A DNA stretch of 32,166 nt from NCBI GenBank assembly GCA_004356985.1, contig SMXQ01000156.1:1-32166 (forward strand), written 5' to 3'. Below are positions 4,828 through 7,534 of this stretch, in pieces. The position numbers were made by a program, and so were the translations under genes. The notes below the pieces were generated by a model. It was not told the DNA's origin. It saw only the letters and a program-made list of their open reading frames with translations, and ran no database searches. The DNA comes from Alphaproteobacteria bacterium. Its GTDB lineage: Bacteria; Pseudomonadota; Alphaproteobacteria; SMXQ01. The stretch's first letter is position 1; every line of letters starts with the position of its first letter.

Positions 4828-5253
4828 ATGCCTAGAAATTCCAAGGTTCAACCGCTTCGTCCGCCGCCCAGTATCACGCCCGGGCCCGACGGAATCCGCA
4901 AGGTGTTCATCAAGGACATGGTCGGCGCTTGCGCGCTCGGCATCCACCGGCACGAAAAAGAGGCCCGCCAGCGGGTCCGGATCAATATAGAGCTTTCGGT
5001 CATCGACATGGGACCGCCGCCGGACGATCACATTCACCAGGTCGTCTGCTACGAGGATGTCGCGGACGATGTCCGCCGCCTTTTGGATGGGTCTCATATC
5101 CACCTGGTCGAGACCCTGGCCGAGAGCATCGCGGTGGCGTGTTTCAAGGACGAACGCGTGGTGGCCGTGCGCGTCCGGGTGGACAAGCTCGACGTCTTCG
5201 ACGATGCCGAAAGCGCCGGGATAGAAATTTCAAGAATTCGCTCAAGTCACTGA
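4828..5253 (+). CDS. folB: dihydroneopterin aldolase family protein
   Basis: FolB converts 7,8-dihydroneopterin to 6-hydroxymethyl-7,8-dihydropterin and glycolaldehyde in folate synthesis. From the ATG at 4828 the protein is 141 residues, with a ~22-residue Pro-rich N-terminal extension before the usual start of the fold (RKVFIKDMVG). The expected active-site residues are present: Glu in GIHRHEKEARQ (E43), the substrate-site Tyr in CYEDVADDV (Y75) and the catalytic Lys in VRVDKLDVF (K120). It lies 114 bp after the pteridine-reductase-like SDR on the same strand. folK and folP are not next to it. Confidence 0.88.
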   Translation: MPRNSKVQPLRPPPSITPGPDGIRKVFIKDMVGACALGIHRHEKEARQRVRINIELSVIDMGPPPDDHIHQVVCYEDVADDVRRLLDGSHIHLVETLAESIAVACFKDERVVAVRVRVDKLDVFDDAESAGIEISRIRSSH

Positions 5254-5638
5254 ATTCCCGTACAAAGCCTGGCAACAACCAGCGCTGGGAAGGCCCCGAA
5301 AGTGTCTATTAGCACGGCGAATCAAGGCCAAGTTGTACACAAGTTTACCTGGAACGATTAAAAGGTAACCACGCTCCTGGCTAAAATACCTATCATCATC
5401 TTGATAAGCCTTGACAAATTATTTTTGATTTAAATTCAATATGTTATAAAAACTGCCTATTTTTTCGGCAAACCGGTCACGGTGTAAGGGTCTCTAAGGT
5501 CCGACGCGCGATCCGTATCTTTATCCACAAGCTTTTCCACAGGTTCGGTGGATAGTCCCTGAGGGTTTTCGAGCGGCCGCCGTGGTCGCCACGCCGGGAC
5601 CCATTGACGCCGAACCCTGAGGCTTCAAAATACCGCCC
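5254..5638. other. long intergenic region upstream of uvrC with AT-rich patch and DnaA boxes
   Basis: This 385-bp gap contains no recognisable gene. Its middle (about 5399-5470) is strikingly AT-rich against the GC-rich surroundings and includes TTGACA at 5411 and ATAAAAA near 5446, but no good -10 at the right spacing from TTGACA. Fifty bases further on are two DnaA-box-like 9-mers, and a weaker one sits at 5333. The region must also supply the promoter of uvrC. Confidence 0.6.
5521..5541 (+). promoter_or_regulatory. pair of DnaA-box-like sites
   Basis: TTATCCACA at 5521-5529 is a perfect match to the consensus DnaA box. TTTTCCACA at 5533-5541 differs from it at one position and has the same orientation, three bases away. 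A third, weaker 9-mer (TTGTACACA) is at 5333-5341. The tandem arrangement next to an AT-rich segment suggests DnaA binding, either as promoter control or as part of an origin. Binding is not shown. Confidence 0.5.
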
Positions 5639-7534
5639 ATGGCCAAGGACAACACCGATCGCAAGGCGACGACGACGCCCACCCGGCGCCAAGGGGCGGA
5701 ACTGATCCGGGCCGAGCTCGCCACCCTGCCTCATCGCCCCGGCGTCTACCGCATGATCGACGCCAAGGGCGACGTGCTTTACGTGGGCAAGGCCAAGAAC
5801 CTGCGCCGACGCCTGTCCGCCTATCGGCGGCCGGACCGGCTCGGCGCCCGCATGGCCCGCGTGGTGGCGGCGACCCGGGCGCTAGAAATCGTCACCACGC
5901 GCACCGAGGCCGAGGCGTTGTTGCTGGAAAGCAATCTGATCAAGCGGCTCAAGCCGCGTTACAACGTGCTGCTTCGGGACGACAAGTCTTTCCCGTTCAT
6001 CATGATCACCCGCGACCATGAATGGCCGCAGATCACCAAGCACCGCGGCGCCCGGCAACCGGACCGGGAATATTTCGGCCCCTTCGCCTCGGCCGGGGCG
6101 GTTAACGCGACCCTGGCCCAATTGGCCCGCGCCTTTCCCCTGCGTTCGTGTTCCGACGCCATCTTCGAGAGCCGGACGCGGCCCTGCCTGCAATACCAGA
6201 TCAAGCGCTGCACCGCGCCCTGCGTCGGCCGCATCGCACGTGAGGACTATCTCTCCATGGTCGACGAGGTGCGCGAATTCCTGCGCGGCAAGAGCCGCGC
6301 CATCCAGGACCGGCTGGTGGACAGGATGCGCGCGGCGAGCGATGCGCTGGATTTCGAGGCGGCCACCGTCTACCGCGACCGCATTCAGGCCTTGACCCGC
6401 ATCCAGGGCCACCAGGACATCAATCTAGCTAACCTGGGAGACGCCGACGTCATCGCGCTCTACCGCTCGGGCGACGCGTGCTGCGTCCAGGTGTTCTTTT
6501 TCCGCGCCGGCCAGAATTTCGGCAACCGCGCCTATTTCCCGGTCGTTCCCCGGCAAACCGACGATGACGATATTCTGGAGAGCTTCATCGGCCAGTTCTA
6601 CGCCCACCATATGCCGCCGTCCCTGGTGCTCTTGAACGCGCCGATCCCCAACCCCGGCCTGGTGGCCGAGGCGCTGGGGCTCAGGGCCAAACGCAAGGTG
6701 ACCCTGTCGGTGCCGCGGCGCGGTTCCCGCAAGGCGGCGGTCGCCCAGGCCGCGGCCAATGCCGAGCAGGCGCTGGCCCGCAGGCTCGCCGAGAACGCCT
6801 CCCAACGGCGGCTGCTGGACGGGGTGGCCGAGGTCTTCGCCCTGGCGGAAACGCCGCGACGGATCGAGGCCTATGACATCAGCCATATGGGCGGCACCGG
6901 CGCCGTCGGCGCCATGGTGGTGGCCGGACCCGACGGCTTCATCAAAAACGCCTACCGCAAATACAATATCCGCGACGACGCGGGCACCTTGGCGCCGGGC
7001 GACGATTACGGCATGTTGCGCGAGGTGTTGATGCGCCGATTCTCCCGGGCGTTGAAGGATGAGGCGCGCAACGTCCCCGGCCAATGGCCCGACTTGTTGC
7101 TGATCGACGGCGGCCGAGGGCAACTCACCGTCGCCGAGCAAGTGTTCGCCGACCTCGGCATCGACGGCGTGGCGCTGGCGGCCATCGCCAAGGGGTCCGA
7201 CCGCAACGCCGGCAGGGAGCGCTTTTTCCTGCCGGGACGCCCGCCCTTCAGCCTGGATTCCCGCCATCCGGTGCTCTACTTCCTGCAACGGCTGCGCGAC
7301 GAGGCCCACCGTTTCGCCATCGGCGGCCACCGGGCCAAGCGGTCGCGCGCCATTTCCCGGTCCGAGCTCGACAAGATCCCGGGCATCGGCAGTGCCCGCA
7401 AGCGGGCGCTGCTCAATCATTTCGGCGCCGCCCGGGCGGTCGAGGATGCCGCCATCGAAGACCTTGCCAAGGTGGAGGGCATCTCCGGAACGGTCGCCCA
7501 ACGCATCTATGATCACTTCCACGAAGTCCCATAG
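5639..7534 (+). CDS. uvrC: excinuclease ABC subunit C
   Basis: UvrC makes both incisions around a lesion during nucleotide excision repair, acting with UvrA and UvrB. The protein is 631 residues, normal for the family. It has an N-terminal GIY-YIG nuclease domain (PGVYRM at 34-39, LYVGKAKNLRRR at 47-58, Glu-rich helix after residue 88), a cysteine-rich segment (RPCLQYQIKRCTAPCVG), a UvrB-interacting helix pair around residue 240, the RNase H-like second nuclease (IEAYDISHMGGTGAVGAMVV and LLLIDGGRGQL, then HRFAIGGHR), and tandem helix-hairpin-helix motifs at the end (IPGIGSARKRALL, VEGISGTVAQRI). The ATG has no strong ribosome site. pgsA, moaD and moaE follow on the same strand. Confidence 0.97.
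   Translation: MAKDNTDRKATTTPTRRQGAELIRAELATLPHRPGVYRMIDAKGDVLYVGKAKNLRRRLSAYRRPDRLGARMARVVAATRALEIVTTRTEAEALLLESNLIKRLKPRYNVLLRDDKSFPFIMITRDHEWPQITKHRGARQPDREYFGPFASAGAVNATLAQLARAFPLRSCSDAIFESRTRPCLQYQIKRCTAPCVGRIAREDYLSMVDEVREFLRGKSRAIQDRLVDRMRAASDALDFEAATVYRDRIQALTRIQGHQDINLANLGDADVIALYRSGDACCVQVFFFRAGQNFGNRAYFPVVPRQTDDDDILESFIGQFYAHHMPPSLVLLNAPIPNPGLVAEALGLRAKRKVTLSVPRRGSRKAAVAQAAANAEQALARRLAENASQRRLLDGVAEVFALAETPRRIEAYDISHMGGTGAVGAMVVAGPDGFIKNAYRKYNIRDDAGTLAPGDDYGMLREVLMRRFSRALKDEARNVPGQWPDLLLIDGGRGQLTVAEQVFADLGIDGVALAAIAKGSDRNAGRERFFLPGRPPFSLDSRHPVLYFLQRLRDEAHRFAIGGHRAKRSRAISRSELDKIPGIGSARKRALLNHFGAARAVEDAAIEDLAKVEGISGTVAQRIYDHFHEVP

Follow-up and report, generated by a model that had tools for sequence, protein, structure and literature searches.

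The window, the whole stretch of 32,166 nucleotides that was analysed, corresponds to contig C75 in the draft assembly of an alphaproteobacterial genome (2.69 Mb, 90% complete). Direct reading of the sequence placed the end of folB at 5253 and the start of uvrC at 5639, leaving a gap of 385 bp. The uvrC gene (5639–7534, plus strand; TIGR00194, 555.9 bits against a cut-off of 285.45) is the usual downstream neighbour, within the class, of the element described here. As the first-pass annotation had claimed, the gap contains a consensus DnaA box (TTATCCACA, 5521–5529, plus strand), a box with one mismatch 3 bp further on the same strand (TTTTCCACA, 5533–5541), a third, distal box (TTGTACACA, 5333–5341, plus strand) and an AT-rich segment of about 70 bp. 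The latter (5383–5452, 80% A+T) surrounds an IHF-type site; no other 70-mer of the window is as rich in A+T, the overall content being 34.6%. This cluster proved to be real and strongly conserved, and it had been described incompletely: a fourth, inverted box (CTATCCACC, 5547–5555, minus strand) had been missed and was located by a geometry scan. The boxes starting at 5521, 5533 and 5547 are termed core boxes III, II and I, respectively, and the whole element spans 5333–5555 (223 bp). All offsets are given relative to the start of box III, the distal box thus lying 188 bp before the core. No Rfam match was obtained within 5200–5700 at E up to 1, and no terminator-like site was found.

The number of DnaA boxes is ordinary, the window having 7 one-mismatch boxes where 6.02 are expected and equally many being found in 32 of 100 shuffles; their arrangement is unusual. 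Box I is opposite to boxes II and III, and the three are spaced 9-3-9-5-9. Order, orientation and spacing are those read from the cores of DARS1 and DARS2, the DnaA-reactivating sequences (DARS) of E. coli K-12 (L110 and L111; DARS1 reads III-3 bp-II-5 bp-I). The two have been described as sharing a core in which three DnaA boxes stand at the same intervals and box I is opposite to II and III (PMC5742627, in excerpt). Boxes I and II of the window carry 2 and 1 mismatches to the DnaA box, and the core totals are 2 mismatches for DARS1, 3 for DARS2 and 3 for the window. Dinucleotide shuffling, performed 2000 times on the gap and 40 times on the whole window, never produced a score of 3 (best shuffle 8), and 100 mononucleotide shuffles of the window failed to give even a 6. 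Box I was present with at most 3 mismatches at its predicted place in 117 of 120 pattern matches, the background in nearby DNA being 2.6%. In its own genome (90% complete), the site of the window is the sole match to the core pattern.

By DNA comparison, the gap matched 6 of 41 genomes, its own included; a further weak match (L006, in genome G027) was rejected as AT-rich DNA near a tRNA-like sequence. The region upstream of uvrC carries the same element in all 11 genomes of the family, with a span from distal box to inverted box of 224 bp in nine and 225 bp in two of them, and of 228 bp in a genome of another family (G026); this span is nearly fixed despite diverged sequence between the boxes (alignment A1). 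A sequence-only model, R1, was built from these 12 elements, all alphaproteobacterial. With E-values up to 0.01, matches were obtained in 270 of 385 alphaproteobacterial genomes (198 of 277 genera), 6 of the 270 having supplied model sequences, and UvrC was encoded downstream at 28 of the 30 best loci. Genome G019 scores past this cut (E = 0.32) yet keeps the order SDR–folB–element–uvrC, which shows that genuine copies can be missed at this threshold. The core pattern derived from E. coli was present in 146 of 385 class members, backward-pattern controls being absent from the matches listed, and coincided with the R1 element in all five complete genomes in which both were placed (G177, G191, G308, G355 and G388). 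The element is not universal in the class: uvrC-upstream stretches of genomes lacking an R1 match had chance-level geometry in 14 of 16 cases (score 9–12) and an intermediate score of 6 in the other two.

The half of the element preceding the core was compared in alignment A3, which comprises 43 relatives picked from R1 matches and is therefore biased toward the model; R1 matches on the opposite strand (4 of 48) and the partial matches L056 and L057 were left out. Within A3, the core was present with at most 6 mismatches in 40 of 43 relatives, and a perfect TTNTNCACA box stood at the place of the distal box in 41. Consensus sequences for Fis and IHF were taken from PMC8682772 and PMC10380432, respectively (both in excerpt). 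The IHF-type site of the window (ATTCAATATGTTA, 5434–5446, plus strand, 87 bp before the core) has one mismatch to WATCAANNNNTTR, and at sequence level a site with at most one mismatch was found at −90 to −83 in 36 of 43 relatives; a gene for IHF alpha scored above cut-off in the window's own genome. A palindrome (GCCTATTTTTTCGGC, 5455–5469) follows 66 bp before the core. The window copy has one mismatch to the Fis consensus GNNYANNNNNTRNNC, which is perfect at −68 to −64 in 35 of 43 relatives.

Palindromic pairing was kept in 84.9% of cells at this site, compared with 20–42% when the pairing was slid, and the covariation score was reached by 38 of 500 shuffles, barely beyond chance. A hairpin or RNA reading was rejected on this score and on the Rfam result. 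Because the covariation barely exceeds the shuffles, the −66 palindrome is likelier to be a protein-binding dyad than a folded strand, and it points to a further regulator protein. A stand-alone Fis gene was not found in the genome of the window by a search for Fis-type helix-turn-helix domains, matches above cut-off being confined to reading frames of 472 and 548 aa. A reading frame of 178 aa on another contig (G000:C43:1532-1579) has a sub-threshold Fis-type match and is a candidate palindrome-binding protein.

DnaA boxes, an AT-rich segment and an IHF-type site sharing one intergenic region are also what a chromosomal origin would offer, and the first-pass annotation had proposed an oriC, with the AT-rich DNA between folB and uvrC as its unwinding element. 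Origins of the hemE type (Caulobacter, Rickettsia, Wolbachia) indeed hold all three, DnaA boxes, AT-rich sequence and an IHF site, within a single intergenic region (PMC1914354, in excerpt). They differ from the present locus in that hemE is far off here and that, in two relatives, the GC skew changes sign elsewhere than at the element. In the complete 3.94-Mb genome G177, the sampled skew changes from minus to plus near 0 Mb, with hemE at 37 kb, parS at 47 kb and the element at 3.19 Mb; in the complete genome G388 the turn falls within 1.45–1.56 Mb, parS lying at 1.484–1.488 Mb, hemE at 1.490 Mb and the element at 0.73 Mb. Cumulative skew had been named as the check for an origin, and in both relatives the sampled skew turns at parS/hemE, 0.75–0.8 Mb from the element, with no minimum at the element itself. 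In G355 the skew is weak and agrees with hemE; for Rhodospirillum centenum, a skew without strong inflection has been reported to point to dnaA (PMC2890560, in excerpt). The skew minimum of G206 lies somewhere within 1.6–1.95 Mb, which does not discriminate between the element (1.585 Mb) and hemE (1.789 Mb).

As positional markers, hemE and parS lay at most 30 kb apart (in the draft genome of the window: on the same contig) in 11 of 12 genomes with a parS match; in G163 their places disagree, and this genome was excluded from the distance statistics. In the window's own genome the two lie together on contig C53, not on C75. Across 12 complete genomes, the element is not beside the usual hemE/parAB markers, and its distance to hemE ranges from 0.095 to 0.636 of a half-chromosome (mean 0.43, SD 0.15). 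A spread this small has p = 0.0018 under uniform placement; since the genomes are related, non-uniform placement is only suggestive. A further point against an origin is that genomes of one non-alphaproteobacterial family can have as many as five R1 matches. The origin reading was dropped after the skew and the hemE/parS positions, and we regard it as very improbable. The element most likely lies outside oriC, a placement that for the window's own genome comes from contig and synteny only. The boxes themselves, whose conservation had been proposed as the second check, are strongly kept in relatives, as the distal box illustrates. The element also cautions that AT-rich clusters of DnaA boxes can be DARS and not origins. 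As a separate observation, 18 exact parS palindromes are scattered over the 2.75-Mb chromosome of G222 (contig C1), most other genomes searched having two.

The steady presence of uvrC downstream raises the question of DnaA-responsive control of uvrC transcription, upward or downward, as what the conservation reflects. A pattern of the palindrome plus box II matched at least 119 stretches of named genomes, and uvrC followed on the same strand in 64 of the first 80 of these loci. This figure and the UvrC counts at the best R1 loci fit such control, as do the position of E. coli DARS1 before uvrB and a report of DnaA control of uvrB (PMC6015884, in excerpt). The same 64 of 80 means that the element is not always tied to uvrC, and other genes take its place outside the class. 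A separate promoter-like site, TTGACG-16-CAAAAT (5604–5631, plus strand; a consensus match only), lies outside the element, 49 bp past the core, and the fixed 224-bp span and the inverted box exceed the needs of a promoter operator. Taken together, these points make uvrC control quite unlikely as the explanation of the conservation, although a DARS function and uvrC control can both be true. The promoter-like site ends 8 bp before the start of uvrC, and several family members have TTGAC...AAAATA at similar spacing, which points to a uvrC transcript with almost no leader.

Outside the class, same-layout elements adjoin unrelated genes. Non-alphaproteobacterial carriers among the matches listed include Thiomicrospira, Hydrogenovibrio, Acidithiobacillus and Curvibacter as well as Chitinimonas, Crenobacter, Geomonas and Mariprofundaceae; two loci labelled 'Acidobacteria' (L144) and 'Mycobacterium' (L164) were excluded, since their uvrC/SDR neighbours mark them as probable alphaproteobacteria. 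In beta- and gammaproteobacteria, related copies adjoin other genes. The gap from palindrome to box II was always 61–63 bp (81 matches in the first 80 of at least 119 loci), and outside the class the neighbours varied with the spacing unchanged. Of 398 genomes drawn from across the phylum, 279 had an R1 match, and 222 of these lie outside the class (weak matches included). Twelve best non-class loci were chosen, of which L338 was left unscanned (its match lies within the first 300 bases and was skipped); all 11 scanned loci had the core with 1–4 mismatches, and 8 of 11 had a perfect Fis-type palindrome at about −66. Changing neighbours combined with constant spacing suit a locus that acts on DnaA and not on one gene.

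Such a locus could also work like datA, in which an IHF-bent pair of DnaA boxes in the same direction hydrolyses or titrates DnaA-ATP; titration had been among the options of the first-pass annotation. The order DnaA box, IHF site, DnaA box, all in one direction, is shared by the element (distal box at −188, IHF-type site at −87, boxes III and II at 0 and +12) and by E. coli datA (boxes at L342:2245 and 2407, IHF site at 2310). The spacing of the flanking boxes differs, being 188 bp in the element and 162 bp in datA. The element also keeps a conserved inverted box I, which datA lacks, the essential datA boxes all having the same direction (PMC5742627, in excerpt), and a search of the datA stretch for the DARS geometry gave a score of 6 at best, compared with 3 in the window. 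A datA-like function is improbable on these grounds. The earlier suggestion of a DnaA-handling locus away from the origin came close, with the geometry favouring a DARS and not datA-like titration.

The element (5333–5555) is thus probably a DARS of the DARS2 type that recharges DnaA, a function read from architecture alone. When R1 was run on 6.2 kb of E. coli sequence, the DARS1 and DARS2 cores were the top two matches (16.0 and 11.8 bits). A non-core datA stretch received 10.4 bits, hardly below DARS2, so the R1 score alone is no proof of a link to DARS2, and the putative link rests on core geometry instead. Like the element, DARS2, located upstream of mutH, has the three-box core with inverted box I (9-3-9-5-9) and bears its regulatory half next to box III, with an IHF-type site at −87 and, at about −185 (−188 in the window), a distal DnaA box. 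Its best IHF-type matches lie at −87 and −71 and its Fis match at −125. The two differ in several respects: the neighbour is mutH in DARS2 and uvrC in the window, the IHF-type site is on the opposite strand, and the perfect Fis match at −125 contrasts with the Fis-consensus palindrome at −66. DARS2 is reported to span 455 bp (PMC5742627, in excerpt) compared with 223 bp for the element, and the genome of the window yielded no stand-alone Fis gene. DARS1, in the bioD–uvrB gap, has an identical core geometry and likewise sits beside a gene of nucleotide-excision repair. Its core is oriented oppositely relative to the uvr gene, and DARS1 works in vitro without an added factor (PMC5742627, in excerpt).

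At the E. coli DARS core, head-to-head DnaA contacts release ADP (PMC5742627, in excerpt). By analogy, DnaA would bind box II and inverted box I in a head-to-head arrangement, box III would contribute one more protomer, and the complex of ADP-DnaA on the element would release ADP as on E. coli DARS. The freed DnaA could then bind ATP and become able to start replication again. IHF would bend the DNA at −87 and bring the distal box (−188) and the binder of the palindrome near the core, and this approach may switch the site on or off. Binding of DnaA, of IHF and of a protein at the palindrome, the release of ADP and cell-cycle timing at the element are all inferred.

We know of no route from ADP-DnaA back to ATP-DnaA in alphaproteobacteria. 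A fixed-plan element in most alphaproteobacterial genera would offer a concrete, deletable site for tests of DnaA recycling. Sequences similar to DARS have been stated, citing earlier work, to be conserved in many proteobacterial species (PMC10380432, in excerpt), the DARS2 core has been called specific to gammaproteobacteria related to E. coli (PMC4245941, in excerpt), and DARS-like sites are reported for Vibrio cholerae (PMC6090056, in excerpt). Detailed descriptions in the literature found concern E. coli and related gammaproteobacteria only. No description of an alphaproteobacterial DARS was found in the literature searched, whose coverage mostly excluded subscription papers. DARS as a kind is already known; the uvrC-linked alphaproteobacterial form, with a Fis-like palindrome and no Fis gene found, appears undescribed in the literature searched.

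A possible, tentatively held scenario that may well prove wrong is that the last shared ancestor of alpha-, beta- and gammaproteobacteria already had a DARS with a fixed plan, comprising a distal DnaA box, an IHF site, a palindrome at −66 and an inverted three-box core. This DARS would have been kept beside uvrC in Fis-less alphaproteobacteria, where another protein would read the palindrome, and DARS1 and DARS2 of E. coli would be reduced or rearranged descendants. Under this scenario, the datA-like left arm may make the element a two-way DnaA switch.

Some further copies were noted in passing. In the non-alphaproteobacterial family f188 (G424 and others), many members have two to five R1 matches per genome, and several DARS-like sites may exist per chromosome. 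In a Conchiformibius metagenome-assembled genome (L166, 5170–5458), the interval between mutS and a NUDIX gene contains palindrome plus core in two tandem copies, 200 bp apart. DARS-type cores repeatedly adjoin DNA-repair genes (L110, L111, L007 and L166), namely uvrB and mutH in E. coli, uvrC in alphaproteobacteria and mutS in Conchiformibius.
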